Shown here: positions 11,200 through 29,559 of the stretch, one piece after another | How the letters are laid out: every line of letters starts with the position of its first letter | Position numbering within the stretch: position 1 is the first letter of the stretch | Origin: Bifidobacterium sp. | GTDB taxonomy: Bacteria; Actinomycetota; Actinomycetes; Actinomycetales; Bifidobacteriaceae | NCBI RefSeq assembly: GCF_022647885.1 | Contig: NZ_JALCLM010000001.1 | Location: 186,001 to 250,000 of the forward strand | Reading direction: 5' to 3' | Length of the DNA stretch: 64,000 nt | Notes under the pieces: model-generated | What the model was told of the DNA's origin: nothing | What the model saw: only the letters and a program-made list of their open reading frames with translations | The model's database searches: none | Translations under genes and position numbers: made by a program

Positions 11200-11311
11200 T
11201 TTGTGTAGGGATTATGGCTACATCCAAGAGTAGGAGGAATAGCAGAATGGCGGAATTGCAAGGAAAACGCCAACTTGACGAAGCCTGTTTATTCACAAAT
11301 CCCTACACAAT
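11200..11311. repeat. Dispersed terminal-inverted-repeat element, copy 1 (112 bp)
   Basis: Left end TTTGTGTAGGGATT and right end AATCCCTACACAA are inverted repeats of each other. The centre contains TGGCG...CGCCA around GGAATTGC, a weaker internal palindrome than in other copies. It lies in the gap between the fused trehalose gene (start 10798) and alpha-glucosidase copy 2 (end 11473). Four more copies occur in the window at 18851, 19866, 28506 and 29448. Confidence 0.85.
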
Positions 11312-11330
11312 CGTGAAATCCGTATAACAA

Positions 11331-11368
11331 GGCACGCGGAGCGGTCTGTATTGACTGCCACGCGTGCC
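11331..11368 (-). terminator. Hairpin downstream of alpha-glucosidase copy 2
   Basis: GGCACGCG pairs with CGCGTGCC, with a second inner pairing (GCGGTC / GACTGC, one mismatch). On the minus strand the stem is followed by TTGTTAT. It sits about 100 nt beyond the stop of alpha-glucosidase copy 2 and is a plausible, though not classic, intrinsic terminator. Confidence 0.4.
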
Positions 11369-11472
11369 CATGTGCGCTATGTGAGTTAAGATAATCACCG
11401 CTCTACCGAGAAACAACAGTTCAACAAATCCAAGAAACTGTGAAATCAGCAGGACGTATCCGCTTCACCCCT

Positions 11473-13332
11473 TCAGAGAGCGTAAACCAGTGCCTCCCAC
11501 GCAGAGAGCTTCCCGGTAAGTAGTGAAGCTGCAGTTTTCTCTTGTGCATAGTTGCTAATCAGCACCTTACTTGGGTCGACAGCACCAAGCGATGTAGTCA
11601 TCATTCCCGCCTGATCGATACCGAGCAGCTGCGCAGTCTGCTCAGGAATCTGAGCACTACGGGAAGAAAGATTGACCACTACGAGAAGACGCTCCCCTGT
11701 GGATTCGAGCTCTCTGGTGAAGGCATACACCTGTGCATCGCCTTCATCCAACAGATGCCACGAACCAGCAGCAACCACAGGATTCTTATGGCGCAATTCA
11801 ATGAGTTTGCGGTAAAACGCTAGAACAGAGTCTTCGTCTCTGCTTTCCGCAGCTGCATTGATGGTCGCATGGTTTGGATTTACAGAGATCCACGGCTCCT
11901 TCGGTGCGTACGATGCTGTGAAACCTGCATATGTGGTTGAATCCCATTGCATCGGAGTACGCGCATTATCTCGGCTCATCACAGCCATACCATGCAGCAT
12001 TGAGGCTGAATCTTGAACTTGTGCCTCTTCTACGCGCTGATGATATAGATTGATTGATTCGAGATCACGATATTGATCGAGTCTGGTAAAACCGGCGTTC
12101 GTCATTCCGAGTTCTTCACCCTGATAGATATAGGGAGTGCCACGATGCAGATGAAGCAATAAACCAAGCGCCTTGGCTGACAAGTCGCGTAACTCTTCAG
12201 TGGAGGTATCTCCCCACCGAGACACAATACGAGGCTGATCATGATTGTCGAAGTAGAGACTTGCCCAACCCGCTTGGCGCACAGCTTCCTGTTCACGAGA
12301 CATGATGTCTTGCAACTTCGGCACCTCAAATGGCAGCACATTCCACTTGCTACCTTCCTGATCAATGCTGAGATGATCGAAGAGGAACAACATATCAAGC
12401 TCATGGTTTGCAGGATCAGATATCACTCCTGTGCGCTCAGGTGACAACCCTGGTGCTTCGCCAACAGTAATAACACCCTCGCGACCTTCGAATACATTCG
12501 CACGCATTTCCTTGAGGAATTCTTCTAGCCTTGGACCATCCGTGCAGAACGGGCCAGGATTCGAATAACCTTCTGGGCCGACCGGAGTATCTTCAAGCAA
12601 ACTTCCAGCCTCGCCTGGCAATTTTCCGTTCTCGTCCATAACCTTAGAAATCATTACGATGACATCCATACGGAAACCATCGATGCCACGATCCATCCAC
12701 CAGTTCATCATCGAATACACAGCCTGACGTAGGCTCTTGCTCTCCCAGTTCAGCTCAGGCTGTTTCTTGGAAAAGTTGTGCATAAAGTATTCTCCACGCT
12801 TGGGATCGTATTCCCATGCGGAACCACCAAAGCATGAACCCCAGCGATTTGGTTCAGCGCCTGGAGTGCCTGGTTCAAAACCAGGACGCGCTGGACGCCA
12901 CCAGTACCAATCAGCATGCTCATCCTGAGGGTCGCGTGATGCTTGGAACCATGCATGCTCATCAGAAGTATGGTTGACCACCAAGTCCATCACGACTTTA
13001 ATGCCTCTTGCATGAGCTTGAGCCAGCAACTCGTCCATATCCTCAAGGGTGCCGAAGAGCGGGTCAATATCTTGGTAATCCGAAATATCGTAGCCGTTAT
13101 CATCTTGAGGAGACTTGTATACAGGGCTCAACCAAATCACGTCAACGCCGAGATCAGCCAGATAATCCAAACGAGAAGTGATGCCCTTGAGATCACCGAA
13201 ACCATCACCATTAGAATCTTGGAAGCTTCTTGGATAGATCTGATAGACCACAGCATTTGTCCACCAGGGGTTTGGTGTTTCCCCATTCGTCCGAATTGAA
13301 TCTGCGAGTGTGATTCGTTGGGAATTGGTCAT
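11473..13332 (-). CDS. GH13 alpha-glucosidase (oligo-1,6-glucosidase type), copy 2
   Basis: 619-aa paralogue of the enzyme at 6333-8189, similar along its whole length. GH13 regions are DLVVNHTS, GFRMDVIVM, VGEAPGLSPE and YFDNHDQPR; it opens PNPWWTNAVVYQIYPRSFQ. No signal peptide, so it acts on imported oligosaccharides. Start ATG 13332 (MTNSQRITLADSIR) has AGAAAGGA six bases upstream, a good ribosome site; the frame is open 17 codons further. A LacI-type palindrome lies about 170 bp upstream, and the sugar transporter operon ends about 830 bp upstream. Two such paralogues with slightly different substrates are usual in bifidobacteria. Confidence 0.92.
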   Translation of the reverse strand: MTNSQRITLADSIRTNGETPNPWWTNAVVYQIYPRSFQDSNGDGFGDLKGITSRLDYLADLGVDVIWLSPVYKSPQDDNGYDISDYQDIDPLFGTLEDMDELLAQAHARGIKVVMDLVVNHTSDEHAWFQASRDPQDEHADWYWWRPARPGFEPGTPGAEPNRWGSCFGGSAWEYDPKRGEYFMHNFSKKQPELNWESKSLRQAVYSMMNWWMDRGIDGFRMDVIVMISKVMDENGKLPGEAGSLLEDTPVGPEGYSNPGPFCTDGPRLEEFLKEMRANVFEGREGVITVGEAPGLSPERTGVISDPANHELDMLFLFDHLSIDQEGSKWNVLPFEVPKLQDIMSREQEAVRQAGWASLYFDNHDQPRIVSRWGDTSTEELRDLSAKALGLLLHLHRGTPYIYQGEELGMTNAGFTRLDQYRDLESINLYHQRVEEAQVQDSASMLHGMAVMSRDNARTPMQWDSTTYAGFTASYAPKEPWISVNPNHATINAAAESRDEDSVLAFYRKLIELRHKNPVVAAGSWHLLDEGDAQVYAFTRELESTGERLLVVVNLSSRSAQIPEQTAQLLGIDQAGMMTTSLGAVDPSKVLISNYAQEKTAASLLTGKLSAWEALVYAL

Positions 13333-13502
13333 TACAAATCCTTTCTTAGCTATACCTCTGTTGCAAAGCTCCTCGATGTGCACACAGCACTGCGAGACTT
13401 TCAGACTTGTGAGCGCGGGGTTTGGATTACTAACTCCACTCAGGATTGTGCGCTGTCAATGCTCTGAGAACACGGGAATACTTGTTTGTATTGCCATGTA
13501 GT

Positions 13503-13514
13503 GCAAGCGCTTGC
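13503..13514. promoter_or_regulatory. LacI-family operator-like palindrome upstream of alpha-glucosidase 2
   Basis: GCAAGCGCTTGC is a perfect 12-bp palindrome with the central CG typical of LacI/GalR-family operators. It lies about 170 bp before the alpha-glucosidase start, where a sugar-responsive repressor would act. No LacI regulator is encoded in this window, so the partner would be elsewhere. Confidence 0.5.
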
Positions 13515-13671
13515 TCACAGGCCGCACAACACCTAGCTGACTTCGCTGTCCTGCTGTCACCATCAAGATCTTTGCTTTTCCTCCTACAGTATGGCAACAA
13601 CCGAATAACTTGGGATGCCTCGGCGCGTCTGGCAGTTGGAGCAAGTAAATCGCACACTCACTGTGGCCTTA

Positions 13672-13737
13672 AGAGTGTGCATAATGCTGCATGTGGAAGA
13701 TGATTTTCGACGGGTTATGCAGCACTATGCACACTCT
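13672..13737. repeat. Long inverted repeat (21-bp arms, 24-bp loop)
   Basis: Arms 13672-13692 and 13717-13737 match at 20 of 21 positions; the left arm begins AGAGTGTGCATA. Upstream, CACACTC at 13653-13659 can pair with the same GAGTGTG (13673-13679) used by the long stem, so two mutually exclusive structures are possible. It lies between the transporter terminator and the alpha-glucosidase promoter region. Confidence 0.8.
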
Positions 13738-13772
13738 CGCCTCATTACTTACGCAGCATAGCGAGTTCAACA

Positions 13773-13810
13773 ATAATCGGGCCCCTCCTATGTAGGAGGG
13801 GCCCGATTAT
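13773..13810. terminator. Perfect GC-rich hairpin, intrinsic terminator of the sugar ABC operon
   Basis: Two perfect 18-bp arms (ATAATCGGGCCCCTCCTA and its complement) are separated by two bases. The AT-rich outer stem gives an A-tract before and a T-rich tract after the GC core in both directions, so it can act bidirectionally. It lies about 360 nt beyond the stop of the last transporter gene, behind the hairpin array. Confidence 0.7.
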
Positions 13811-13865
13811 GGCAAATACACTCGTGATTAAGTGAGCTGTATGTTTATGGGATCAGATTGGTGGG

Positions 13866-14166
13866 TGCTCATATCGCTTATGCGAAGCACAGCGCGCTGT
13901 ACGGTTAACAACTCAGGCTTAGCGGGTACTTCACTTCGCCTGATGTCATGAACCATTGCGTAACGTATCACGACGTATGGCAATCGCTACGCGATTCTTA
14001 CTATCGCCACAGCGATAGCCCTCGCGCCCTTTGCGGGCGCTCACTTCGCCTATGTGAAGCGCACCGCGCTTCACACTTAACGGGCTCAGCCTTTGCGGCT
14101 GCTCACTTCGCCTACGGACAGCCCACAGGGCTGTCCGCTTAACGGCTCAGCCCACAGGGCTGTTCG
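13866..14166 (-). repeat. Array of GC-rich hairpins with 62-bp period behind the transporter operon
   Basis: A TCACTTCGCC-type motif recurs at 13869 (degenerate), 13931, 14041 and 14103, exactly 62 bp apart within each pair. Between copies sit perfect hairpins: 13889-13900, 13982-13996, 14001-14018, 14024-14040, 14054-14074 (9-bp arms), 14087-14101, 14115-14137 (10-bp arms, ACA loop) and 14148-14162. A second linker, CTTAACGG(G)CTCAG, repeats between hairpins. The first hairpin starts five bases after the permease stop codon, so the array would form the 3' untranslated part of the transporter mRNA. Confidence 0.8.
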
Positions 14167-15045
14167 TTACTTAACGGCGCCCCTCATTACGCCGGAGATG
14201 ACCCACTTCTGGGCGAAGACGTAGACGATGAGGATTGGTGCCATAGCCATCAGATAGCTAGCGAAAGCCATCGGATAGTTAGTGGCGAACTGAGAGCTGA
14301 ACACATATTGTGCCAGAGGAATTGTCTGATTCGACTGATCAGTCAAAATAATCAATGGCAACAGGAAGTCGTTCCAAGCCCACAGTGCTGTCAGAATTGC
14401 GATAGTAGCGTTGATAGGTCCCATCAGCGGGAAGATAATCTTCCAGAAGATGCGCCAAGTCCCAGCACCATCGATTCTCGCCGCTTCTTCCAAAGAGACA
14501 GGAATCGAACGGATGAAACCGGTTGCGATAAACAAGTTGGTTCCAAGACCAAGCACCATATACAGCAGCACCAAGCCAATCTGATTATCCAAATGCCAGC
14601 TACCGAATTGCTTAGCGATAGGAAGCATGATCACAGGGAAAGGCACAAACATTGCAGCAATGAAGAAGTAATACATAAAGCGGAAGAATCGCTTATCCAT
14701 ATTCCTTGCCACTGCATACGCCACAAAGGTGTTGGTCAGCAATGTCAACACCACTGCAGCCACGGTAATTAACGCCGAGTTCAGTGCTGCCTTTGGATAG
14801 TTAACTTTATTCCAAGCATCAGCAAAATTATGCCATTCCCACGTTCCCGGCAGACCGAATGTACCTGCATCAGCAGGTGTTTTCAGAGCGGTAATGATGG
14901 TGAAATACAGCGGAATAAGAATCGTCAGAGAGAGCACTGCAATGACTGCGGTCAACCACCAATTAATGCGGTGAGAACGACTCTTCTTTATCTTTTCCGA
15001 CCCAGCAGGCTCTGCGCCATTCGTTAAGGTTGTTGCGGCACTCAT
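14167..15045 (-). CDS. Sugar ABC transporter permease (MalG type)
   Basis: Inner-membrane permease of 292 aa with six hydrophobic segments, CUT1 family. The ATPase-contact EAA loop is visible as SLEEAARIDGAGTWRIFWKIIFPL. ATG 15045 (MSAATTLTNG) is chosen because it lies one base after the stop of the upstream permease, with GGAGAAG in front. Last gene of the operon binding protein - MalF - MalG; no ATPase is encoded here, so it probably shares a MsmK-type ATPase encoded elsewhere. Substrate is probably an alpha-linked oligosaccharide given the neighbouring glycosidases. Confidence 0.92.
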   Translation of the reverse strand: MSAATTLTNGAEPAGSEKIKKSRSHRINWWLTAVIAVLSLTILIPLYFTIITALKTPADAGTFGLPGTWEWHNFADAWNKVNYPKAALNSALITVAAVVLTLLTNTFVAYAVARNMDKRFFRFMYYFFIAAMFVPFPVIMLPIAKQFGSWHLDNQIGLVLLYMVLGLGTNLFIATGFIRSIPVSLEEAARIDGAGTWRIFWKIIFPLMGPINATIAILTALWAWNDFLLPLIILTDQSNQTIPLAQYVFSSQFATNYPMAFASYLMAMAPILIVYVFAQKWVISGVMRGAVK

Positions 15046-15046
15046 T

Positions 15047-15973
15047 TCAGATCTTCTCCTTGTTCCCAAAGAACTTCAACTGAACAAACGCGATAATTGC
15101 CAGAACAATAAAGAACAGCACAGCGTTTGCAGTCTGGTAGGCGTATTCGCCGCCGGTTAGACCACCTGTGTAAATCAAGTAAGTCACCGTTTCAGTCTTT
15201 GAATCAGGACCACCATTTGTCAAAGCAACGACCTGATCGAAAGTACCCAAAGCGTTCTTCATGGTCAGCACCAAATTGATGGTGAAGAATGGTCCAATCA
15301 GAGGGAAGGTAATCTTGCTAAAGCGCTGCCAGCCATTCACACCATCGATGGAAGCTGCTTCATAAATCTCGCCATCAATAGTCTGCAAACCAGCAAGGTA
15401 AATCAATGTCGAGTAAGCGATGCCCTGCCAAACAGCAAGGAAGACAATCGGCACCCAAGCATAATGCTCACTAGTCAACAGCGATTCCGAAAGCCAACTG
15501 ATGTTTAAAGCTCGCCCTAGCGCCGGTAAAGGCGTCATGAAGATGTACTTGAATACATAACCAATGACCAGCACACCAAGGGTGTACGGGATGAAGTAGA
15601 TAGCGCGGAACCCATTCTTGAACCACAGATTACTGTTCAAAGCCACTGCCAAGAACATAGCAATAACGTTAATCAGAATCGTAATCGCAATAGCAATCAG
15701 GAAGGTGAACAGGTACGCATGGCCTACACGGTCATCTGAGAACAGAGCAACATAGTTCTTGAAACCAATCCACTTGTAGTCGCCAAAACCTTGCGAATTG
15801 GTAAAGGAATAAGCGACGCCCTGAATGAAGGGAACATACAAGAATAGACCGAAAATAACTGCTGCTGGAACAACCATCCAGTAGTAGGCTCGATCAACCT
15901 TGCGATTGGAGAAAGCACTGCGCTTCTTTGGACGCTTTACAGCAGCGCCCTGCGCGGTTTGTACGTGTGACAT
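15047..15973 (-). CDS. Sugar ABC transporter permease (MalF type)
   Basis: Permease partner of the MalG-type protein, 308 aa with six membrane segments, CUT1 family. The EAA motif reads EIYEAASIDGVNGWQRFSKI. A basic N-terminus (KRPKKRSAFSNRK) precedes the first segment. Start ATG 15973 (MSHVQTAQ) lies just behind the binding-protein gene (26-nt gap); the frame is open upstream but without homology. Confidence 0.92.
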   Translation of the reverse strand: MSHVQTAQGAAVKRPKKRSAFSNRKVDRAYYWMVVPAAVIFGLFLYVPFIQGVAYSFTNSQGFGDYKWIGFKNYVALFSDDRVGHAYLFTFLIAIAITILINVIAMFLAVALNSNLWFKNGFRAIYFIPYTLGVLVIGYVFKYIFMTPLPALGRALNISWLSESLLTSEHYAWVPIVFLAVWQGIAYSTLIYLAGLQTIDGEIYEAASIDGVNGWQRFSKITFPLIGPFFTINLVLTMKNALGTFDQVVALTNGGPDSKTETVTYLIYTGGLTGGEYAYQTANAVLFFIVLAIIAFVQLKFFGNKEKI

Positions 15974-15998
15974 GATGATCTCTCTATCCTTCCTCGGC

Positions 15999-17318
15999 CT
16001 ACTCGAAGGTCCTGGCTTGGATCTTGTCCCACTCGGTCTGCATCGAGGAGGTGAAGTTATCCACATTGCCCGTTGTCACCATCGTCTGGAGATAGCCTCC
16101 GATGTTGATGGATGACGGAATGTAATGATCGCAGAAATCAGCGAGCTTATTCTGCTTGAAGAACGGGAGTACACCCTTGAGGGCATCGTCACCGACCGTG
16201 GTGTCTTTCAGAGGTGTAAATGCCGACTGAGCCTTGGCATAAGCCTCAAGCTGTGGCTTACTCATCAGGAACTTAATGAACTTCATGGCTTCCTTCGGAT
16301 GCTTGGTATTGGCACCCATAGTCAGCATCACATCATCACCTGCGGTAAGAACTTGCTCATCAGCATTATCAGTGGCTGGCATCTGTGCAAAACCAAGATC
16401 TGCTTTGGCGTTCACCAGTTTGATCTGAGGAATAGCATAAGTTCCCAGCGGAATAATTGCGGCCTTACCATTTGCAAAGTCCTGCGTTCCCTGCTGGTAG
16501 GTAACACCCTGATCCGCTTGTGAGTACTTCATTAACTCAACAATCTTGTTTCCTGCATCAGTCCAGATCTTGTCAAAGGTGGTAGCACCAGTCTTCAAAT
16601 CTGTGTACTTGCTTTCAGGCACTAAGGTACCGTTCAGCGAAGCTAGAGGAGCCTGCAAGGTCCAGGAATCAGCAACTGTGGCCTGTACTGGTGTAATACC
16701 AGCAGCCTTGAACTTCTGGAGCATCTGGATAAAGCCAGTCCATGTTGTTGGTGGGTTATCCGGATCTACACCTGCTTGTCTCCACAGCGCCTTGTTATAG
16801 ATGTAACCGCTAGCATTACCTGCGAATGGCAAACCATAGAGCTTCTTTTTGGAGGCGTCAGTAGTTTGAACAAGATTCTTGGCGATAGTTACCATGCCAG
16901 GATTCAAAGTTTTAACGATCGGATCGTCCGTAAAATCATGGAATACGCCCGAGGCAGCAAACATGCCAAAGCTGATATCGCCGTTAAATGTGATGACATC
17001 TGGCACGCGGTTCTTGACCAGACGAGTACGCAAATCAGTCTGCGCACTAGCTGAGTTATTAATATTGATTCGGATATTCGGGTTCTCAGCCTCGAATTCC
17101 TTAGCCATCGCTTTGAACTGATCAGCAGCTTCCGACTTGAACTGGAAGAAGTCCAAAGTTACGACCTGTGCGGTGGATGAACCGCAACCACTGATCGACA
17201 GACCTATAGCAGCAGCTAATAGAGCTGCGCATGTACGGCCCAAAACTGTTTTCATTCGTCCCGACCAACCGGAAAGCATGCCGCTCCCCTTAGGACGAAA
17301 AATGGAATCAGACTTCAT
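15999..17318 (-). CDS. Sugar ABC transporter substrate-binding lipoprotein
   Basis: Extracellular solute-binding protein family 1 (MalE-like), 439 aa, lipid-anchored: a hydrophobic segment ending LSISGC provides the lipobox. Typical features are [25 protein letters not shown] at the start of the mature protein and the [12 protein letters not shown] region. AAGGAG five bases before ATG 17318 fixes the start. It gives the transporter its specificity; the cluster context (two alpha-glucosidases, an alpha-galactosidase) suggests raffinose-, melibiose- or isomaltose-like sugars, but this is inference. Confidence 0.92.
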
Positions 17319-18850: not shown

Positions 18851-18950
18851 TTTGTGTAGGGATTCTTCGCCATACCTCGAGTATCGGTGTTGAAAAATCG
18901 CCATTTTTCAACACCGATACATTGGGTTTCAAGAAAAATCCCTACACAAA
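18851..18950. repeat. Dispersed terminal-inverted-repeat element, copy 2 (100 bp)
   Basis: Ends TTTGTGTAGGGATT and AATCCCTACACAAA are perfect 14-bp inverted repeats (16 with flanking CG). The centre 18881-18920 is another near-perfect palindrome with arms starting GTATCGGTGTTGAAAAAT. It sits between convergent genes (ROK regulator and the DUF559 gene) and its right end encodes the last codons and stop of the DUF559 gene. Confidence 0.9.
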
Positions 18951-19834
18951 CGAATCGGGTTCGTTCGATGACCCAATATTTCGACAATATCTTCCACTAA
19001 TAGCTTCCATTGACGCTCAGAAAGCAGTGATTCCCAAGTAATAGGAATAATTGCCCACCCCAAACCCTGAACTGCTGCAATCTTTCGACTATCTCTGTGC
19101 AAAGCATCTCGAGTCGTATGAAATTGTTCCCCTTGGTATTCGAGTGCAACACGATGCTCAGGGTATGAGAGATCAAAAAACCACATTTCCTTAGTCTTCG
19201 GGTGAACCAGGCGATAATTCACCTCAGGACAAGGTAATCCGCTGCGCACTATCTTGAGACGCAAGCGCGTCTCCATCGGAGAATCCGTTCCTTCGCGGCA
19301 ACGCTCAATAGCCCACATTCCATTTTTTCTTCCACGAAATGAAGCTGAATCAGCAAGATACCCTTCGAGCTCATTCAAACTAGCCAGGCGACGGATGGGG
19401 TCTCTGCACACAAGACTGTCAAACATCATTACTGCTTCTTCTCTCGAGCAGAAAGCAAGCATCTGCATGCATGCGGTAATCGGATCGACCACGCTAATGC
19501 TATTTTCGAGGAGTTGGGCTTGCACTGGCAAAGACCACACGCGGAACTGCATACCTCTTACAGTCGAACGCATATCCTGTCGTGGTACACACACATACAA
19601 AAGATCATCACTAAGTCGATGTCCGTAAGGAATGGGGATCCCTAACAACTTTAGAGCACTTAATGCGCAAAACACCAGCGACTGCTTACACCTCTTACTG
19701 GCATCAATGCATCGCTTCATCTCATCCGCAGCCACGCTCAAAGAGCTACCAAGAATTCCGCCATTCACATCAGTTTCATCGAAGTTCATGCTCATAACAT
19801 AGGTAATATCCTCAGATAATGATGACTGTTTCAC
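18929..19834 (-). CDS. DUF559-type endonuclease-like protein with AbiEi-like N-terminus
   Basis: 301 aa. The C-terminal third has the DUF559/Vsr-like nuclease pattern: MWFFDLSYPEHRVALEYQGEQFH, followed by RDSRKIAAVQGLGWAIIPITWE, with acidic and E-x-Q residues of a PD-(D/E)XK fold. The N-terminal two thirds resembles the long AbiEi-like proteins common in actinobacteria, which are usually of unknown role. The start is uncertain: GTG 19834 or ATG 19795. The stop codon and last seven or so residues lie in repeat copy 2, and copy 3 lies just upstream, so the gene is bracketed by two elements. Function unproven; a DNA-processing or phage-defence role is only an inference. Confidence 0.72.
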   Translation of the reverse strand: MKQSSLSEDITYVMSMNFDETDVNGGILGSSLSVAADEMKRCIDASKRCKQSLVFCALSALKLLGIPIPYGHRLSDDLLYVCVPRQDMRSTVRGMQFRVWSLPVQAQLLENSISVVDPITACMQMLAFCSREEAVMMFDSLVCRDPIRRLASLNELEGYLADSASFRGRKNGMWAIERCREGTDSPMETRLRLKIVRSGLPCPEVNYRLVHPKTKEMWFFDLSYPEHRVALEYQGEQFHTTRDALHRDSRKIAAVQGLGWAIIPITWESLLSERQWKLLVEDIVEILGHRTNPIRLCRDFS

Positions 19835-19865: not shown

Positions 19866-19965
19866 TTTGTGTAGGGATTTTTTGCAATCTCGCAGGTAAC
19901 AACAAAGGTGAGCGTTGGAATTCCAACGCTCACCTTGCATTACTACTTAATAATCCCTACAGAAA
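19866..19965. repeat. Dispersed terminal-inverted-repeat element, copy 3 (100 bp)
   Basis: Ends TTTGTGTAGGGATT and AATCCCTACAGAAA (one mismatch to the consensus). The centre 19905-19936 is a perfect 32-bp palindrome (arm AAGGTGAGCGTTGGAA) with core GGAATTCC. It lies between the DUF559 gene and alpha-galactosidase. Confidence 0.9.
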
Positions 19966-19991: not shown

Positions 19992-22220
19992 TTACTGAGC
20001 TAATTCAGCTTCAAACAGCACTGCTTGCGCCGGATGCAGGGAAGGTGCGCGCAATCCTGAAGACATCAACAGCGCTCCTGGGAGTACTACTCCTTGCTCA
20101 TTCCACCATCCTGAATCAGACTGCGCATTACCGATTTCGCTAATGTCTCTGCTCACAGACAGAGGCTTTACCCGATAGAGAGCATCAGGATCCAGTCCAG
20201 GAAGTCTCACAGGAGCGCTGGGATATATTTTTGAAGTGGTGAGCTGAGTAAAGCGATAGACCCCGTGAGATTTATCTTCACTGACCACACCGTCAAGCCG
20301 AACCCCAGGATCGCTTGAATCCCCGTGCACAGCCTGTCCGGTAGCAAAGATTCCTCTGCGCTCTTTGAACGCTTCGACCCAACCTGCAAGAGTATCAATT
20401 GCCGACTGCGGTTCTTTAAGCAAATTCCACTCAATACCCATATGACCAAAGAACGCAGTTGCCATACGCATTTCTTGACTTGTTGCACGATGCGTCGAAT
20501 GCGCAGGTGATGCACCAACATGCTCACCGATCATCTCTGGAGGCACCAGCAATGAGGTATATCGCTGAATATCCGCACGCTCCACTGGATCGACACAGTC
20601 AGATGCCCAAATACGATCTGCAACTTCAAGAATGCCCAAATCTACGCGGCCACCGCCTGAGCTGCAAGATTCGATTTCCAAACCAACATGGTGTTGCTTG
20701 AGATCACGAAATATCTGATACACCGCTTCTGTCTGCTGATGTACACAAGGACGCCCGCTGCGAGGAGAAACAGCTTCAGTAACCAAACGATTATGGTCCC
20801 ACTTGATGTAGTCGATACCCAGCTGAGCTACTAGTCCATCCATTGCAGAGAACACATACTCATAAGCATCAGGATTGCTGAGATCCAGCACCTGCTGGCT
20901 ACGCCCTGTCATAGGTAATCTGTTTGCTGTCGGTTTGATAATCCAGTCCGGATGTGCGCGAGCGACATCTGAATCAGGATTCACCATTTCCGGCTCAAAC
21001 CACAAGCCAAACTCCATGCCAAGCTTGTGAACATACTCTGCGAGAGCATCTAGACTCTGGGAACCTTCTGGCCAAACAGCTGGATCAATCTGCCAATCTC
21101 CCAAACCTGCGGTGTCATCACGACGATGCATAAACCATCCATCATCAACCACAAAACGCTCAACTCCTGAGTCCTGAGCTTTGTCCGCGAGCGCTTTGAG
21201 CGTATCGAAGGAATGATCGAAGTACACAGCCTCCCAAGTATTGAGAATAACTGGGCGTGGTTTCTTTGCGAATTGTGGGTGTAATGCTCTGAGATACTCA
21301 TGGAAACGAGTAGCAACCTGATTGAGGCCGATACCGTAGGAGCCGTAAATCCACGGAGTGGTATATGTCTGTGACTCATCCAGCTCAATCTCGCCGCCGA
21401 CGAGTGTTTCAGCGCCACCAATGATGCCCTGTGTATATGCAAGTCTTTCGGCAGACAACAGCGAATTGCCACTCCACGCAACATGAACTGAATACACCTC
21501 GCCTTGAGTAAAGCCAAATCCTGGCACTCCAGCAGAAAGGAGCAGGGACGCATCAAAATCAGGACGTCCAACGGTGCTGGCTTTTTCAAGACGGCCAAGG
21601 TTGAAAGGCTGACGCTGTGGAGAGCGCTCTCGCAGGTGATGTCCGGTCGTGGTGAGGATTTCGCTCGCTACTTCGGGCACAGGGAACGCCAATTCGACCT
21701 TGTCGACTGCCAAAGTACCCGAGGCACCTGGCATATTGGTGACGGTCGCTTGTTGTCTAAGCAAACCGGAAGGCGTCAATTCACATCGCCATTCGAGGCC
21801 GACATGCTGCTCTTCATCGCTGGCCTTCACCACAACAACTTGCCCATCGCAATCAGTATCGACATCTATGACGGAGAAGCTGCAGAATAGTTCAATGCCA
21901 TTACGCCTGACCACGAAGCGAGATACTCCTGACCATGCTTCTGCTTGAGTCGGCAGAACGCTAGGCCAATTAGTATCGTTCAATGAACCTGACACTCGTT
22001 GTGGACGGAGTGCATCATAGGTATCAAGCAATTGCTCTGGATGTTTGAGGGCTTTCCCCCAGTAAACAATGCGTGGCATCTGATCGTCCGCTATAACGAA
22101 CGCGAAACCCACATCAGCTTTAGACCTCTGCCCGTAATAAACCTTGATATGAGGTCCCAGAGCAGATTTGCCCTCAACATGGGACCATACGGTCTGTTCG
22201 GATGTGTGTGTATTACTCAT
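19992..22220 (-). CDS. Alpha-galactosidase, GH36
   Basis: 742-aa GH36 enzyme that removes alpha-1,6-linked galactose from melibiose, raffinose and stachyose. The nucleophile motif is YIKWDHNR and the acid/base region IWASDCVDPVERADIQRY; SCSSGGGRVDLGIL between them binds substrate. FVVDDGWF at the barrel entry and the large N-terminal beta-sandwich are normal for the family. No signal peptide, hence intracellular. Start ATG 22220 (MSNTHTSEQ) with GAAGGAAC in front. Fits with the oligosaccharide transporter upstream. Confidence 0.93.
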   Translation of the reverse strand: MSNTHTSEQTVWSHVEGKSALGPHIKVYYGQRSKADVGFAFVIADDQMPRIVYWGKALKHPEQLLDTYDALRPQRVSGSLNDTNWPSVLPTQAEAWSGVSRFVVRRNGIELFCSFSVIDVDTDCDGQVVVVKASDEEQHVGLEWRCELTPSGLLRQQATVTNMPGASGTLAVDKVELAFPVPEVASEILTTTGHHLRERSPQRQPFNLGRLEKASTVGRPDFDASLLLSAGVPGFGFTQGEVYSVHVAWSGNSLLSAERLAYTQGIIGGAETLVGGEIELDESQTYTTPWIYGSYGIGLNQVATRFHEYLRALHPQFAKKPRPVILNTWEAVYFDHSFDTLKALADKAQDSGVERFVVDDGWFMHRRDDTAGLGDWQIDPAVWPEGSQSLDALAEYVHKLGMEFGLWFEPEMVNPDSDVARAHPDWIIKPTANRLPMTGRSQQVLDLSNPDAYEYVFSAMDGLVAQLGIDYIKWDHNRLVTEAVSPRSGRPCVHQQTEAVYQIFRDLKQHHVGLEIESCSSGGGRVDLGILEVADRIWASDCVDPVERADIQRYTSLLVPPEMIGEHVGASPAHSTHRATSQEMRMATAFFGHMGIEWNLLKEPQSAIDTLAGWVEAFKERRGIFATGQAVHGDSSDPGVRLDGVVSEDKSHGVYRFTQLTTSKIYPSAPVRLPGLDPDALYRVKPLSVSRDISEIGNAQSDSGWWNEQGVVLPGALLMSSGLRAPSLHPAQAVLFEAELAQ

Positions 22221-23056: not shown

Positions 23057-25852
23057 TTAACGACTGGTTTTCAACATAGTGATAATTCCGCGCCTAGCCC
23101 TACGTCCCATGGCCTTAAGTCCTGATTTTGGCCCATGTCCGTGTCTGGCAAGCCATGCTCGGATGATTTTGTCGCCTTCGCAGAAGAACAGCACTGTGAT
23201 GGAAATTAGGAAGCACACCAACCACTGAGTTCCATTCATCGGAGATACTCCGAGTACTGAGGCAATCGGCGATATATACATTGCTCCAGCATGTATTACC
23301 AAGGCAACCACCGATGCGATTAATAGGAATTTGTTACGCAATGGGTTGAGCTGCACTATCAACAGCGTTTCTGATCTGGCTGACATTGACATAAAGAAGT
23401 TGAATAGCACCAACAAGGTTAATGCCATAGTGCGAGCTTGGATAACTTCAGTACCATTGTCGAGCAGCATACGGAACATCACCAGAATGCACATTGCCAT
23501 CCATAGACCACACACAGCTGTTCGTGCCCACAATGCTGCGGAGAGCAGTCCTTCTTTGCGTTCCCTCGGTGGGCGCGTAAGTTCATCACCGCTACCTGGC
23601 TCGAAACCGAGCGCGATATCTTGCACACCGTTGGTAACAAAGTTAATCCATAGCATCTGTAGCGGGAGGAATAGTAACGGCATCTCGGCAATAACGTTCA
23701 CTCCTACTGCAATCATCGCAGCAACTGCAGTTGAGAGCAGGAAGAATGCCGAACCTCGAATGGCCTTGAACGTTACTCGTCCCTCACGAACGGCATCCGT
23801 GATGGTGACGAAGTTATCGTCAGTCAACACCACATCGCTCGCCTCACGAGCAACATCCGTTCCTGATTTGCCCATAGCAATACCCACCGAGGCAGCTTTC
23901 AAAGCAGGAGCATCGTTTACACCGTCACCTGTGACTGCAACAACTTCGCCTTGATCCTGCAGCACTTCGACTATGCGGAGCTTGTCTTGTGGTGAAACGC
24001 GAGCCGCTATAGAAGTCTCTCTAAGTCGTGCTTTGAGTACTTCGTCACTCATCTCCAACATCTCACTACCAGTTAAGGCGTCTTTGGTATGTCGCAACCC
24101 CAGACGTTCTCCTATCGCAGCTGCGGTAAGAGGATGATCACCAGTAATCATTTTGACCTCAATACCAGCATCTGCGCATTGTTTGATTGCCTCCTTAACG
24201 CCCTTACGAGGAGGATCCAACATTCCTTCTAATCCTAGGAATTTCAAACTATGCGGTTCTTGATGATCGTGGAGATCGGTATCAGCGGGCAATTGTTTAC
24301 TGGCAACCCCTATTACTCTCAACCCTTGGCTGCCCATGCTGTTGTACGTTTGATGCATAGCATCGACGTCCATAGCGATTTCTTCGCCGCTGCCGTCATC
24401 CATCGTGGTACTCATAGTGGCTATGCTGTCGGGCGCGCCTTTCACATATTGTGTATAGCTGCCGTCTGGATTACGACGAATAGTCATTGAGTAACGTAAC
24501 TCTGGCTCGTATGGAGTTTCAATCTCTATAGGATATGCAAGTTCCGAAGCACTGATAGCACCGGCTTCATCTGCTATTCGTGCCATGGCTACATCGACGG
24601 CATCACCTGTGTAGGTCATACTGCCGTCATCCTCGGTGTTGCGATAAGCCTCATTGGTTAACGCCCCTGCTTTAAGCAGCTGTATCAAACTAGCTCTCTG
24701 CGGTTCGCTTATTTGGTCACGAGATTCTTCGTCGCACAGTGTTGGACGCTGCTGCCCAACTGCAAACTGTTCCACAGTCATACGATTCTGTGTGAGTGTG
24801 CCGGTTTTATCTGAACCGATCACCGTTGTGGATCCTAGCGTCTCCACCGCAGGCAGCGTTCGCACAATGGCATTACGCTTCGCCATTCTCGAAATGCCAA
24901 GGGCCATAGCGACCGTCAACACGATTGGCAGCGCCTCTGGCATAGACGCTACAACGAGTGAGACTGAGGAGAGAAATGCACCAGTGGCATCTTTGTTGAT
25001 GAATACTCCACCAAGAAAAACGAATACTGCCACGATCAGCACGGCAATGGAAATACCGCGCTCAGTGCGCTGCATGATTTGTTGTAGTGGCGTATTCGCC
25101 TTGGCACCATGCACCAAATCGTTGATTTCACCGAGCTCAGTATCTGAACCGGTCGCCACCACGAGCCCACGCCCTCGGCCACTAGTTACCAAAGTTCCTG
25201 AGAAAGCAACACATTTGCGATCGCCAAGCGATGCATCCTCATCCACAGCTTCAGTGTTTTTCTGGGCATCCGTGCTTTCACCAGTCAACATTGACTCGTT
25301 GATTCGCAGCCTGCTAGATTCAATCAATCTCAAATCAGCAGGTACTCTATCTCCGCTCTCCATAACCACAATGTCGCCTGGAACCAAGTTGGCAGCTTCT
25401 ATACGCTGCATTGAACCGTTTCTCAGCACTCGGGAGGTTGGTGACGACAGCGATGCGAGCGCTTCAACAGCTTTATCAGCCTTGGTCTCTTGGTAGTAGC
25501 CGATAATGGCATTAAGCAGCAGCACGATGAAAATAGCGATGGCATCTACGAAATGCTCCAACAGAATGGTGATAATGCCGCACCCGATAAGTACAGCAAT
25601 CAGAGGACTCTTGAATTGGATGAGGAACATTTTCCACTTCGGCATAGGCGCCTGGGCAGAAAGCGCGTTAGCTCCGAACACCTCAAATCGTCGCTGAGCT
25701 TCTTCTGGGGATAACCCTCGCGGAGAAACCTCTAGAGCGTCAAGTGCTTGTTCGGCGCTAATAGCGTGCCATGAGGTTTCCTCACGGACAGGGGCAATCG
25801 ATTCCTTAAGCTCCGTCGCATTATCTGTTGTCGTATGTGCCATCTCGGTCAT
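23057..25852 (-). CDS. Cation-transporting P-type ATPase (Ca2+ type, P2A)
   Basis: 931-aa membrane pump. Domains in order: cation ATPase N-terminal domain (residues 25-95), actuator with MLTGESTDAQKN, phosphorylation site GSDKTGTLTQNRMT, hinge TGDGVNDAPALKAA, and a six-helix C-terminal cation-ATPase domain. The M4 sequence ASMPEALPIVLT matches the P2A (SERCA/PMR1-like) PEGLP-type motif, with A in place of G, so calcium or manganese export is the best guess. ATG 25852 has AAAGG seven bases upstream. C-terminal tail is basic. Confidence 0.9.
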   Translation of the reverse strand: MTEMAHTTTDNATELKESIAPVREETSWHAISAEQALDALEVSPRGLSPEEAQRRFEVFGANALSAQAPMPKWKMFLIQFKSPLIAVLIGCGIITILLEHFVDAIAIFIVLLLNAIIGYYQETKADKAVEALASLSSPTSRVLRNGSMQRIEAANLVPGDIVVMESGDRVPADLRLIESSRLRINESMLTGESTDAQKNTEAVDEDASLGDRKCVAFSGTLVTSGRGRGLVVATGSDTELGEINDLVHGAKANTPLQQIMQRTERGISIAVLIVAVFVFLGGVFINKDATGAFLSSVSLVVASMPEALPIVLTVAMALGISRMAKRNAIVRTLPAVETLGSTTVIGSDKTGTLTQNRMTVEQFAVGQQRPTLCDEESRDQISEPQRASLIQLLKAGALTNEAYRNTEDDGSMTYTGDAVDVAMARIADEAGAISASELAYPIEIETPYEPELRYSMTIRRNPDGSYTQYVKGAPDSIATMSTTMDDGSGEEIAMDVDAMHQTYNSMGSQGLRVIGVASKQLPADTDLHDHQEPHSLKFLGLEGMLDPPRKGVKEAIKQCADAGIEVKMITGDHPLTAAAIGERLGLRHTKDALTGSEMLEMSDEVLKARLRETSIAARVSPQDKLRIVEVLQDQGEVVAVTGDGVNDAPALKAASVGIAMGKSGTDVAREASDVVLTDDNFVTITDAVREGRVTFKAIRGSAFFLLSTAVAAMIAVGVNVIAEMPLLFLPLQMLWINFVTNGVQDIALGFEPGSGDELTRPPRERKEGLLSAALWARTAVCGLWMAMCILVMFRMLLDNGTEVIQARTMALTLLVLFNFFMSMSARSETLLIVQLNPLRNKFLLIASVVALVIHAGAMYISPIASVLGVSPMNGTQWLVCFLISITVLFFCEGDKIIRAWLARHGHGPKSGLKAMGRRARRGIITMLKTSR

Positions 25853-26282
25853 AGGGGGCCTTTCTCGTGAATGATTCCATCACCGGAGAGGTCGCTGCGA
25901 GTCCAAACCAGTTTGTGCGCGGCGCATACTTCCCCACTCGGTGAACAGCGACTTCGCACGTCAATCAGACCGTTAACAAAAACCTAATTCAACACTAACA
26001 CGTTACTAACGGGCTAATCTGTAGTAATTGGAAACATTATGCTTGTGGCGGCATCCCCAAGACGATTTAAGGAAGAATGAGAAGCTGTAGGTGTTCATTA
26101 CGCTATCGCGGATAATAGTAAACATCAGCCACGGAACGCAGTGAGAGCGAAGCAGTCGGTCGGTGTTGAGATGAGATATGCGCCGGTTGACGATGAGCGC
26201 CCAACATCCATGGCAAAACGGAGCGGGATTCATCACCCGAGCCATCATGCGTACGCGCATGTGACCGAGAAAGAGGGCGGCT
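25853..26282. other. 430-bp divergent intergenic region
   Basis: Separates the divergent P-ATPase and antiporter genes and must hold both promoters. A perfect CATGCG TACG CGCATG dyad lies at 26246-26261, just before the antiporter start. No riboswitch-like structure recognised. Confidence 0.4.
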
Positions 26283-28478
26283 GTGCAGGAGTTCACACTT
26301 ATCCTTTGCATCGTTGGCGCCGTGTTGATCTCCTCGTTTCTCAGTCGTTTTCTTCCAAAGGTTTCAACACCTTTAGTGCAGATACTCCTTGGCGTGGTGT
26401 TAACCCAATTACCCTTTTTCCCTGAGGTTCACCTTGATCCAGAGCTCTTTATGGTGCTCTTTATTGCCCCACTGCTCTATTACGAAGCTCACAGTATTGA
26501 TAAGTCGTCTTTAATTAAGAACCTCGGTATCTCACTTTCACTGGCTATTGGACTCGCAACTGCAACCATGCTCGTAGTCGGATACGCTTTGAACGCCGCA
26601 TGGGCTTCGATACCGCTGGCAGCAGCTTTCGCTTTGGGTGCAGCTCTTGGTCCTACTGATGCTGTGGCTGTATCTTCACTTGGTAAAGAAGCTAGTTTAA
26701 GTATCCGTCAACGAGCCATTCTTAAAGGCGAATCATTATTCAATGATGCGACTGGCGTCATAGGCTTCCAATTTTCCATTCTTGCAGCCGTAACCGGGGC
26801 TTTCTCTCCGGCTCAGGCCATTGGCACTTTCGCTTTCTCCTTCGTTGGAGGAGTGCTACTCGGATTGATATCTGGCGTATGCCTCAACTGGCTTTTCGAA
26901 ACCAGTCGCGAACTCGGTTGGGAAACGACTACTACACGAATCCTAATGGAGATTTTCTTCCCTTTCCTGCTCTACATCGTCGCGGAAGATATTGCCCACA
27001 TATCTGGGATTCTTGCAGTGGTCACAGCTGGCTTACTCATCCGCTTTGACCGCAGCGGTATAGGTCCTAATGTTTCACGAACCAACATTGTGTCCTCAAG
27101 TGTGTGGACGGTACTGTCGTTCAGCTTGAACGGTGCCGTTTTTGTGCTTCTGGGGATGTTGCTGCCAGAGGCCATGCAAACCAGCTGGTCAGATGAAACA
27201 GTGAACAATTGGGCACTCATTGGGATTATCGCTTTAGTTTCAGCAGTAGTTGTGGTTATTCGATTCATTTGGGTTTCTGGCATGCTTGCCATTACCAAAG
27301 ACGCCAACTCACATAGGCGCAGACCTATGACTGCAGAACGTTGGCGTTCCGCAGCAGTGATGACTTTCGGCGGGCCAAAAGGAACTATCACGCTGTCGTT
27401 GGTGCTTACCATTCCGTATTTCCTAGCTTCTGGTAAACCTTTCCCAATGCGCGATGAACTGATTTTTGTCGCTGCTGGGGTGATTATCGTGACTCTGGTC
27501 ATGGCTAATTTCGCATTACCGTTGCTTGCCCCTGTTGGAGCGCACAGCATCCCCACTAAGCATTTTGAAACCGTTATTGATGTGCTTCGTAGAACGGTGG
27601 AGGAGTTATCTTCCAGAGCCACCGCCGAAAATCGTCGAGCAGTTCAAATCGTGCTGTCCTCCTACAACCAAAGGATTGCACGACTCAAAGCCAGAATCGG
27701 GCAGCGCGATCCTAAGGAATTTGAGGCACTTCAGATTGAGGCTTTGACGTGGGAGCAGGATTTCATTGAGCACCGTCTTGCCGTCTTGGATGAGCCAGAA
27801 TCTAAGCACAGCCTTGAAACACCAGAAACTGAGCAGAGTGCCGCAGATTCAACAACCGAGTCATTACCCAGTGCGCCGGATGCACTTGAGCCATCTACGG
27901 ATACGGCTGCAGCGCAGACAGCTACTCTGACTGCTGATCCGATTGATGAGGAAACACGAAAAGAATATGAACGTCGTGCAGCCTCACGTCTTTTGGATCA
28001 GATTTCTCGTTCGCTCAGTCATATCGATGAATCCAGTGAGATGCGTTGGCGACTGCGCAGCATTCGACGTCGCTCGCACAGTTTAGTTAAGCGTCTAAGT
28101 GGACGTATCCGGCATTCAACTCCGTTGATGAATGGTGATGTGTTATTCGCTATCACTCGATCGTTGCAGGCAGACGTAAATCGTTATGTTATCGAGAAGT
28201 TATATGTTGAACTAGGTTCTGACCGCTTTAATACCGAAGATGTGTTGTCACTGCTGATTGAGCACCAGCGGGCTGATAATGCTCTGCGTGCACGTCCGAC
28301 TATGGGCGACACCACAAAAACTTTGGTCACCGTGCAAGAGATTAAACGTGAGGGATACGCCATCGAGCTCAGCATCATCCAAGATATGCTCGAGGCGGGT
28401 GACATATCACGCCCTGAGGCCCGATTGTTGCGCCGCAACGTCTATGTGATGCAGGTTGACGCCGATTCTGGCATCTAA
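26283..28478 (+). CDS. Na+/H+ antiporter, CPA1 family
   Basis: 731 aa. The N-terminal about 410 residues form 12-13 membrane segments with CPA1 hallmarks: ALGPTDAVAVSSLG, KGESLFNDATGVIGFQ (catalytic ND) and GGPKGTITLSL. A long cytoplasmic tail with an acidic, low-complexity linker (residues 515-560) follows and ends in a helical domain. Start is GTG 26283 (QEFTLILCIVG), the first codon before the first membrane helix, with GAGGG in front. Function: Na+ or K+ expulsion against protons; pH and salt homeostasis. Confidence 0.9.
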   Translation: MQEFTLILCIVGAVLISSFLSRFLPKVSTPLVQILLGVVLTQLPFFPEVHLDPELFMVLFIAPLLYYEAHSIDKSSLIKNLGISLSLAIGLATATMLVVGYALNAAWASIPLAAAFALGAALGPTDAVAVSSLGKEASLSIRQRAILKGESLFNDATGVIGFQFSILAAVTGAFSPAQAIGTFAFSFVGGVLLGLISGVCLNWLFETSRELGWETTTTRILMEIFFPFLLYIVAEDIAHISGILAVVTAGLLIRFDRSGIGPNVSRTNIVSSSVWTVLSFSLNGAVFVLLGMLLPEAMQTSWSDETVNNWALIGIIALVSAVVVVIRFIWVSGMLAITKDANSHRRRPMTAERWRSAAVMTFGGPKGTITLSLVLTIPYFLASGKPFPMRDELIFVAAGVIIVTLVMANFALPLLAPVGAHSIPTKHFETVIDVLRRTVEELSSRATAENRRAVQIVLSSYNQRIARLKARIGQRDPKEFEALQIEALTWEQDFIEHRLAVLDEPESKHSLETPETEQSAADSTTESLPSAPDALEPSTDTAAAQTATLTADPIDEETRKEYERRAASRLLDQISRSLSHIDESSEMRWRLRSIRRRSHSLVKRLSGRIRHSTPLMNGDVLFAITRSLQADVNRYVIEKLYVELGSDRFNTEDVLSLLIEHQRADNALRARPTMGDTTKTLVTVQEIKREGYAIELSIIQDMLEAGDISRPEARLLRRNVYVMQVDADSGI

Positions 28479-28505
28479 TGCAGGCAATTTTCAGTGACAA
28501 AATCG

Positions 28506-28616
28506 TTTGTGTAGGGATTATCTTGATAAAGCCTTCTTTATAGTTTTGAAAAGGGCGGAATTCCGCCCTTTTCAAAATTCTTATACTGCCGGTATCGGTT
28601 GAAATCCCTACACAAC
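28506..28616. repeat. Dispersed terminal-inverted-repeat element, copy 4 (111 bp)
   Basis: Ends TTTGTGTAGGGATT and AATCCCTACACAA. The centre 28544-28577 is a perfect 34-bp palindrome (arm TTTTGAAAAGGGCGGAA) with core GGAATTCC. It lies exactly between the convergent antiporter and esterase genes. Confidence 0.9.
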
Positions 28617-28656
28617 TGAATCCGTCAACGAATATTGACGACAATTACTGCGTTTT

Positions 28657-29421
28657 TTACATCATTCCAGACGAAATATTGTTTTGTATGAGCCACTGCC
28701 TGATATCGCTGAACTCTTCGAGGCTGACAGCATGGTCCAATCCTCTATACTCATGGGACGTAAGCCAGGTATGCTCTTCCAACCAAGCATCCATCGCAAA
28801 CAACTCATATCGCGGAATAACATTATCGGAGCTGCCGTATCCGTAGAAAACCGGAAGGTCCAACTGCGCTAATTGTTCGTCAGCGGGTGCTGAACCCTCA
28901 ACATTCCCTGGTGCTAAGAATCCGGAGAGACATACTGAAGCTCGGTATCGTTCGGGGTTGATACGCAATAAATGCACTGCCAGCACCCCACCCTGTGAGA
29001 ATCCCAACAGCACGATGTCTCGATCTGCTGGGATGTGCTCGCGTACCCATCGATCTATGGCAACGGATGCAGCGTAGGCATCTCTATCTAAGTCATCGCC
29101 AGTAGGTACACAATCATGGAACCACGTATAACCGGCAGGACCTACCCCCATAAGTTCTTGGGGCATCTCGAGTGGCGCACGTAAAGCTACATAATCGTTA
29201 TAAGGAGCCACGTAACGCATCAAATCAGCTAAATCTTGCTCGTTTGAGCCCCATCCGTGCAACAGGAGAAACATCGGAAGTCGAGTATTCGCCTGCGCAT
29301 GATCCTTGGAAAACAACGCATGCTGTACTTGCACGGCCTCGCCAAATCTTCCAGCAATTACCTCAGATTCGCGGCCACTTAGCTCACTTTTAAGGTTTTC
29401 CTCACTCATATTGGACACCAT
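28657..29421 (-). CDS. Alpha/beta hydrolase, phospholipase/carboxylesterase family
   Basis: About 254 aa, single hydrolase domain of the phospholipase/carboxylesterase type. Catalytic serine in GFSQGG, aspartate in YGSSDNVIP and histidine in GLDHAV are all present; FLLLHGWGSNEQDL is the oxyanion-hole region. No signal peptide. Start is ambiguous (ATG 29421, ATG 29409, or GTG 29436). Natural substrate unknown. It is bracketed by repeat copies 4 and 5. Confidence 0.8.
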   Translation of the reverse strand: MVSNMSEENLKSELSGRESEVIAGRFGEAVQVQHALFSKDHAQANTRLPMFLLLHGWGSNEQDLADLMRYVAPYNDYVALRAPLEMPQELMGVGPAGYTWFHDCVPTGDDLDRDAYAASVAIDRWVREHIPADRDIVLLGFSQGGVLAVHLLRINPERYRASVCLSGFLAPGNVEGSAPADEQLAQLDLPVFYGYGSSDNVIPRYELFAMDAWLEEHTWLTSHEYRGLDHAVSLEEFSDIRQWLIQNNISSGMM

Positions 29422-29447
29422 AGCGCACAATTTCACCCTTCAGCCAT

Positions 29448-29559
29448 TTTGTGTAGGGATTTGCTGCAATCTCATGACTATCGGCAATGAAAAATCCGCA
29501 GTATTCCGGGGTTTGTAATCATGCGCTAGTAGCAGTTACAGTGCAAATCACTACACAAA
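29448..29559. repeat. Dispersed terminal-inverted-repeat element, copy 5 (112 bp)
   Basis: Ends TTTGTGTAGGGATT and AATCACTACACAAA (one mismatch). The central palindrome is decayed here, though TATTCCGG remains at the middle. The inner flank TGCAATCTC is shared with copy 3, which supports common descent. It lies upstream of the esterase gene. Confidence 0.85.

Follow-up and report, generated by a model that had tools for sequence, protein, structure and literature searches.

Short two-armed intergenic elements in a Bifidobacterium genome, putative sites for a dedicated DNA-binding protein

The window analysed here is a stretch of 64,000 nucleotides from Bifidobacterium sp. (NCBI RefSeq assembly GCF_022647885.1; positions 186001-250000 of a single contig of 2,342,264 bp; genome G000). 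It carries five short intergenic elements, each bounded by a 14-bp arm, TTTGTGTAGGGATT, and its reverse complement. An earlier note on this DNA described them as a family of five. The family is real, but its size was underestimated, since there are at least 91 members in this genome. The elements have conserved arms, fall into discrete length classes, stand mostly behind gene 3' ends, keep arms and length in place between species and are rarely found decaying. From these properties we infer a protein, bridging of its two binding positions and a boundary function. We place about even confidence in the proposal, drawn from sequence, that the elements are putative two-armed, dyad-symmetric double-stranded DNA sites for a dedicated sequence-specific protein and most likely mark boundaries at the ends of transcription units.

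Bacterial transcription units end mainly via RNA hairpins or Rho. In the proposed mechanism, a half-site of about 35 bp (CG-TTTGTGTAGGGATT with weaker GTAnAC and AGTAT boxes) would hold one protein unit. Both half-sites would have to face the same side of the helix, which would restrict length changes of the centre to full turns, and the DNA between them would be bridged or bent by the bound pair. Such a complex behind genes, often convergent ones, would act as a boundary, either blocking read-through or insulating neighbours. A minority of the elements enclose a terminator-like hairpin, and it is these hairpins, together with the gene-end location, that suggest a role in transcription. Arms that are nearly letter-perfect between species around a free interior point to a protein gripping both ends. 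A protein gripping both arms on one helix face best explains the constraint on arms and helical distance, the free interior and the gene-end location.

Anatomy, location and conservation of the elements

The exact 14-mer occurs 119 times in the whole of G000 (58 forward, 61 reverse) and its reversed-pattern control not once. A pair of 9-bp cores separated by 64-94 bp is found 68 times (control 0). Elements were collected from 482,866 bp, namely the window and stretches around found arms, which include 117 of the 119 exact arms; the count of at least 91 applies to this DNA, and elements with both arms altered elsewhere in G000 would escape it. Summed over the 28 arm positions, 32 elements have no mismatch, 46 have one, 12 have two and a single one has three. 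All but two of the 117 examined exact arms (115) belong to short elements. The remaining two stand in inside-out pairs, whose arms face away from each other: one at 353494-353622 (locus L049; second arm from 353609, starts 115 bp apart) and one at 1003415-1003501 (L063; second arm from 1003488, starts 73 bp apart).

Element lengths in G000 are 90 (2 elements), 100 (13), 101 (3), 110 (13), 111 (28), 112 (24), 121 (1), 122 (6) and 123 bp (1). The classes near 100, 111 and 122 bp, with the two elements of 90 bp, are thus about one helical turn apart. The lengths are phased in G000 (R=0.93, period 10.95 bp) and also in G016, another species of the genus that has the same sites (R=0.95, period 11.1 bp); in each case this is the best of periods 9-12, and no null was run. 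A position profile of 65 elements of 110-112 bp (130 half-sites) gives arms near 2 bits per position except at the first base (0.9), preceded by C at -2 in 88% and G at -1 in 75% of the half-sites. Inward of the arm follow two weak boxes, GTAnAC (about positions 22-25) and AGTAT (30-34), and then an almost unconserved stretch. Near the dyad A46-A47, G53, A55 and T57 recur, single centre positions attaining 1.2 bits and most remaining positions staying below 0.4 bit; nearly all sequence between the arms varies from copy to copy. In the 100-bp class both outer boxes keep their distance from the arm and the centre is shorter, which argues for a half-site of about 35 bp and a spacing between half-sites that changes by turns. 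Perfect central stems are bimodal: five of the 91 G000 elements have stems of 16-20 bp and five of the 47 G016 elements stems of 14-21 bp, and in the rest they reach at most 7 bp. This count leaves out imperfect or off-centre palindromes such as those at 250894 and 930062. Stems of at least 9 bp appear in 0.05% and 0% of shuffles.

Gene context was taken from a simple codon-usage gene caller. None of the 91 elements of G000 lies wholly within genes; 48 are placed between tandem, 39 between convergent and 3 between divergent genes, and 1 at a stretch edge. The 47 elements of G016 comprise 25 tandem, 21 convergent and 1 divergent case. For 35 of the 48 tandem cases in G000 the 3' end of the upstream gene is closer than the next start (medians 73.5 vs 154.5 bp), and in convergent pairs a median of 23 bp separates the element from the nearer gene end.

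Conservation in place was assessed against G016, in which 47 exact-core elements were found. For 28 of these, homologous genes within 2 kb on both sides occur in the same order around a G000 element. Across the 28 matched pairs the arms are identical at 747 of 784 positions (95%). Interiors are identical at 56.0% of positions, compared with 54.1% in mismatched pairs, and the 18-bp flanks at 49%. Of the 28 pairs, 26 retain the length class to within 2 bp, against 59% by chance; the two exceptions are the pairs formed by G000 1190324 and 333569, and each includes an element to which a copy at another site is related. Because these G016 loci had been fetched via their elements, an unselected stretch of G016 was added (contig C2:1-380000 and 20 kb of C1). 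The C2 part contains 17 elements, and 12 of 19 comparable G000 element loci (homologues of both flanks at most 5 kb apart) carry one; with 17 elements among 173 intergenes of at least 100 bp, the probability of this is about 2e-8.

Decaying copies are few. On unselected C2 all 17 elements have 0-3 arm mismatches and none has 4-6, and the 20 kb of C1 hold one degenerate copy (5 mismatches). In the examined DNA, whose regions were chosen around intact elements, G000 has no copies at 4-6 mismatches and two at 7 (control means 0.15 at 6 and 1.0 at 7), and G016 has 22, 16, 6, 3 and 1 copies at 0-4 mismatches and none at 5-7.

The five elements of the window

The coordinates at which the earlier note placed the five copies were all confirmed (Table 1). 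Every + arm is identical to TTTGTGTAGGGATT. Of the - arms, that at 18937-18950 is a perfect match to the reverse complement, and the other four each deviate at one position. The clustering of lengths at 100 and 111-112 bp was recovered. So was the description as intergenic or touching a gene end, the predicted gene between elements 2 and 3 terminating within element 2. Single arms with up to 3 mismatches number 12 in the window against a shuffle mean of 6.0, a moderate excess that 1 of 100 shuffles reached, and ten of the 12 are arms of the five pairs. Arm pairs (60-150 bp, at most 3 mismatches in total) did not arise in ten first-order Markov simulations of the window. Interiors of the five align only in a few columns. 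Three of the five have a perfect central palindrome with a stem of 16-18 bp, of different sequence in each, and these are three of the four perfect palindromes in the window (stem of at least 12, gap of at most 7). The fourth, at 13773-13810, is G+C-rich with 18-bp stems and does not belong to the element family.

Table 1. Elements of the window and the gene between two of them (G016 and G024, comparison species).
Feature	Position	Strand	Length	Arms	Central palindrome	Neighbours and remarks
Element 1	11200-11311	none	112 bp	11200-11213, 11298-11311		minus-strand trehalose-phosphate synthase/phosphatase and alpha-amylase family genes, one each side
Element 2	18851-18950	none	100 bp	18851-18864, 18937-18950	18881-18920 (18-bp stems)	convergent ROK-family gene and 301-aa gene, the end of the latter overlapping the element
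Element 3	19866-19965	none	100 bp	19866-19879, 19952-19965	19905-19936 (16-bp stems)	downstream of alpha-galactosidase (melibiase) gene 19992-22220 (-)
Element 4	28506-28616	none	111 bp	28506-28519, 28603-28616	28544-28577 (17-bp stems)	convergent Na/H exchanger and abhydrolase genes; locus without element in G016 and G024
Element 5	29448-29559	none	112 bp	29448-29461, 29546-29559	degenerate centre	minus-strand gene each side; locus without element in G016 and G024
301-aa gene	18929-19834	-	301 aa			sole gene separating elements 2 and 3; no Pfam match at E 0.001

The product of the 301-aa gene presumably resembles the actinobacterial DUF559/Vsr-like endonuclease family. G016 and G024 lack the gene between their ROK and alpha-galactosidase genes, and no relatives of it were found among called genes of more than 150 aa in the examined DNA of G000, G016 and G024. 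At the locus of element 1, G016 has no arm pair and instead a 71-bp element of a different family. The members of this second family are exactly 71 bp long, with arms GATAACTGC...GCAGTTATC. They are fairly homogeneous in G016 (10 copies in 264 kb, among them L114:9038-9108 and L119:728-798), and the two copies in examined G000 (878124-878194 and 1271324-1271394) have diverged interiors. Elements of 71 bp occupy two G016 loci where G000 has TTTGTGTAGGGATT elements (G000 197200 and 883541). Elsewhere in the window, 13856-14145 is a 56-bp repeat in three diverged copies, and where G000 has element 895453, G016 shows a similar GCTCACTTCGCCTATGCG run. The diverged direct repeats 6799-7774 and 11918-12917, about 5.1 kb apart, are probably two paralogous alpha-amylase family genes.

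Weighing of the explanations

Several observations weigh against sites bound by a dedicated protein. Among the 24 loci on unselected C1 and C2, 14 have an element, a single degenerate one serving for two of these loci, and 10 have none. Three of the five window loci are without an element in G016, and the other two map onto one degenerate element with 5 arm mismatches. No candidate binder was found among tyrosine recombinases, Y1 transposases and the neighbours that were read; other transposase and DNA-binding families were not searched. Gene-end placement could merely reflect tolerance of insertions there, and the background of gene pairs in the examined DNA is biased, because the stretches were picked around elements. 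The sites are randomly spaced along the chromosome (coefficient of variation 1.06), which does not favour regular domain spacing. Within the elements A+T is weakly phased, with a spectral peak at 8.0 bp and not at 10-11 (P 0.0165 for the 10-11.6 band). Copying or replacement of elements can still occur, and in 287 kb of the sister species G024 no arm pair stands out. Regular domain spacing is rejected on the random placement, and a DNA wrapping signal on the weak phasing with its 8.0-bp peak. No binder gene was recognised beside the divergent sites, whose neighbours read as housekeeping-like.

The distance of G024 from G000 and from G016 is similar to that between those two, the median protein identities being 86.5, 85.2 and 85.0% over 93, 43 and 16 reciprocal best hits in the examined parts. 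The same 287 kb show no other inverted-arm family. Sixteen element loci (13 of G000 and 3 of G016, some of them the same intergene) were placed in G024, where they have gaps of 49-356 bp and no arms. At the ROK/alpha-galactosidase locus a hairpin of G024 resembles, by eye, the element centres of G000 and G016. One of 34 G024 hairpins has an element-like centre, and it lies at this locus (P=0.09); a stricter scan gave 0 of 26, and both scans missed the dcd-ATPase hairpin of G024, which was seen by eye. The evidence leans towards loss of the arms in G024, short of proof.

An unlikely explanation, though one to be taken seriously, is that the elements are non-autonomous mobile elements of the type of REPINs or miniature inverted-repeat transposable elements (MITEs). 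The arms would then be recognition sites of a transposase, the interiors would drift and new copies would arise occasionally. Two inverted arms with a variable middle are as in REPINs (PMC8049555), and presence or absence of elements differs between close species. There are also similar copies with unrelated flanks, although only two groups with clearly similar interiors exist among 138 elements. The first consists of G016 L111 3051 and 6958, equal at 79 of 82 interior positions, with a more distant member in L113. The second is G000 1180817 and 1190324, in inverted order and equal at 78 of 82 aligned interior positions. Both of the latter have G016 elements at matching loci, whose interiors fall outside the similar pairs. 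This and the two exceptions to the length rule look like replacement in place. Old mobile copies should lose their arms as fast as their interiors, whereas the arms at matching loci are near-identical and the interiors at background. The scarcity of decaying copies likewise speaks against mobility. No target duplication was detected in the 138 elements at k = 2, 3, 4, 5, 6 and 8 with four offsets, nothing exceeding the maximum of 200 flank re-pairings. No longer element with the same ends is present in the examined DNA (0.48 of 2.34 Mb of G000), and neither G000 nor G016 has a Y1 transposase, further transposase families not having been searched.

The earlier note had called the elements miniature inverted-repeat elements or repeated structured RNA/DNA sites. 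As in MITEs, they are short and non-coding with terminal inverted repeats, and the occasional self-copying attested by the two groups of similar elements also agrees with that name. They differ from MITEs in that their interiors are not shared, target duplications and a partner transposase were not seen and decaying copies are few, and the constancy of arms and length around diverging interiors does not fit the name either. A young MITE is rejected, as the interiors are unrelated and there is neither a duplication nor a decay series. With REPINs the elements share dispersed extragenic pairs of short conserved inverted arms, a diverse spacer and long inheritance. They are set apart by the lack of a Y1/RAYT (REP-associated tyrosine transposase) gene in G000 and G016, by the helical length classes, by arms constrained at matching loci and by arms that are not GTAG-tagged hairpins; GTAG stands at arm positions 6-9 of 14, and the arm itself is not palindromic. 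PF01797 (Y1 transposase) is present in 11 of 189 family genomes, and a REPIN-RAYT system is rejected on its absence here. GTAG and CGTC repeats with spacers are described in PMC3733652, the main text of which contains neither 'bifidobacteri' nor 'actinobacteri'.

We consider it improbable that the elements are attachment sites for a site-specific recombinase, with cassettes entering and leaving so that an element remains on each side, and with interiors exchangeable between sites. Two cassettes suggest such events. G016 has the order dcd, element, lacI, transporter and GH32 genes, element, ATPase, where G000 has one element. G000 has ROK gene, element, 301-aa gene, element, alpha-galactosidase gene, where G016 has the one degenerate element. 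The G016 cassette is L111:3161-6957, where a lacI-type regulator, a DMT-like transporter and GH32 (names by reading) lie between near-identical direct elements. Both exceptions to length conservation would also agree with a recombinase, as if the element with a related copy elsewhere had been replaced in place. Yet there are only these two cassette cases, and the G000 cassette is flanked by two unlike elements. The gene between elements 4 and 5 is also in place in G024 and G016, where no elements accompany it. The five PF00589 matches of G000 (E 0.001) read as XerC, XerD and three phage-type recombinases, and there is no strongly conserved core, single centre positions reaching 1.2 bits. Integron attC sites have conserved ends, a variable, imperfectly palindromic middle and a 7-bp core. 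The present elements resemble them in their conserved ends, in their variable middle and in sometimes flanking one gene on both sides, but have ends of 14-16 bp and no 7-bp core and are scattered over the chromosome. No integron integrase was recognised on reading the five G000 recombinases, for which no dedicated model was run. For the mobile integrase cassettes, or recombinase-in-trio (RIT) elements, of B. longum a 96-bp inverted repeat is printed (PMC2430713, PMC3414803), and in our reading it contains repeated arm-like motifs. Its sequence (TTAAGCCGGG) is unrelated, and G000 has no recombinase trio, none of its five PF00589 matches being adjacent; on both grounds a RIT or mobile integrase cassette is rejected.

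Transcribed RNA elements at 3' ends, in which a 14-bp stem would close either a bidirectional terminator or an mRNA stabiliser, appear slightly less probable still. The gene-end location, the long perfect central stems of a few elements in G000 and G016 and the alike hairpins at the ROK/alpha-galactosidase locus in three species would fit them. Changes in the arms, however, are mostly uncompensated. In G000 63 are one-sided, 2 two-sided with the pair kept and 3 two-sided without; the numbers for G016 are 32, 2 and 2. Moreover, 86 of 91 elements have central perfect stems of at most 7 bp, helical length classes have no reason in RNA, and an Rfam scan of the window gave no match at the gathering score. 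From the earlier wording the repeated structured DNA site is supported and structured RNA is disfavoured by the mostly one-sided changes; an RNA family is rejected on these and on the empty Rfam scan.

Among chromosomal sites, matS and the bacterial interspersed mosaic elements (BIMEs) bound by architectural proteins are examples of sequence-specific or palindromic intergenic sites in large number. The present elements are likewise intergenic and chromosome-wide, but have a longer two-armed build, helical spacing and random genomic spacing. The earlier note had named two findings that would count against it, the lack of further copies in the genome and a match to a known named repeat family. 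Many more copies exist, and besides the empty Rfam scan there is no description of these elements among the literature matches listed (arm sequences; Bifidobacterium MITE, intergenic-repeat and repetitive extragenic palindrome (REP) topics; open-licence papers). Of the papers listed for the arm sequences, none deals with repeats of bifidobacteria.

Related arrays in another genus and a putative class of boundary sites

The exact core-pair pattern occurs in 2 of 27 species of the genus examined (68 in G000, 47 in G016) and in 7 of 189 family genomes; it recovers about half of the elements (9 of 17 in G016 C2:1-380000), and few or altered elements may escape it. A scan of named contigs led to Bifidobacterium reuteri, B. 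myosotis, B. callitrichidarum, B. jacchi and B. miconisargentati, and also to palindromes in unrelated organisms. In those bifidobacteria the elements are arrays of 19-bp repeats, CAYGRTGTAGGGANNNNNN, one to four per side, inverted around a GGCGGAATTCCGCC-like centre. The 13-mer CAYGRTGTAGGGA is found 5-72 times in six species (G055, G074, G079, G087, G092 and G107) and 0-2 times in the other 183 genomes (control 0-1). Five of the six array genomes are named species by matching sequence and position, and only G055 among the six has PF01797. Repeats in the arrays read form a strict lattice, with a direct spacing of 19 bp in 76 of 77 cases and inner spacings of 46 (13), 56-57 (5), 65-66 (11) and 75-76 bp (4).

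Of 34 arrays, 15 lie between convergent, 11 between tandem and 3 between divergent genes, and 5 at stretch edges. Six distinct loci among them share a gene 3' end with sites of G000 or G016, where about 3 are expected by a hand estimate; several of the 34 arrays are mutually orthologous, and a seventh match (5' end to 3' end) was excluded. Position conservation across genera is suggestive only. Shared loci aside, neighbours of the arrays gave one weak match between two ABC-type proteins among the matches listed. The densest cluster read, three arrays in 6 kb, is in G087 C12 (L221:5076-10700) and surrounds a two-component system and an ABC-F gene (both named by reading).

Eight further species, sampled at 100 kb each, had no 8- or 9-mer in inverted-arm arrangement at more than two places; the same-size G016 control lists were filled by the 71-bp family, so that power for about four copies per 100 kb was not demonstrated. 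No array was present in viral contigs, and the one array tested had no match in plasmids or phages; an origin from phage or plasmid is rejected on these absences. Four single 16-mer matches in viral contigs are at chance level by an estimate, not a computation. Five long-stem palindromes of 106-111 bp ending in AATCCCTACA occur in the uncultured Clostridia bin BRZ_PC__bin92 (L018, L019, L030, L031 and L033). Their interior, with CCCCGTCCCC, seems unrelated, and they look like an independent repeat family.

Taken more widely, and more tentatively than for the elements of G000 themselves, we suggest an undescribed class of bifidobacterial chromosomal boundary sites, about 100 per genome, in which two helically phased half-sites would be bound by a lineage-specific protein. 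Around a related GGCGGAATTCCGCC-like centre, the arms would differ in form with the lineage: two species of one genus have a single 16-bp arm on each side, and six species of another genus have one to four tandem 19-bp arms on each side. Loss of the protein, as possibly in G024, may be followed by loss of all sites at once, some loci keeping only the central terminator hairpin, and cassettes may enter and leave preferentially at these sites. If this is true, protein-bound, helically phased sites behind genes would be a new device for gene ends or chromosome organisation. The arm sequence would serve as an immediate bait for the protein, and G024, a close sister without the sites, as a natural control. 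Uptake of gene cassettes at the sites, if it occurs, would in addition link chromosome organisation to gene gain in gut bacteria.

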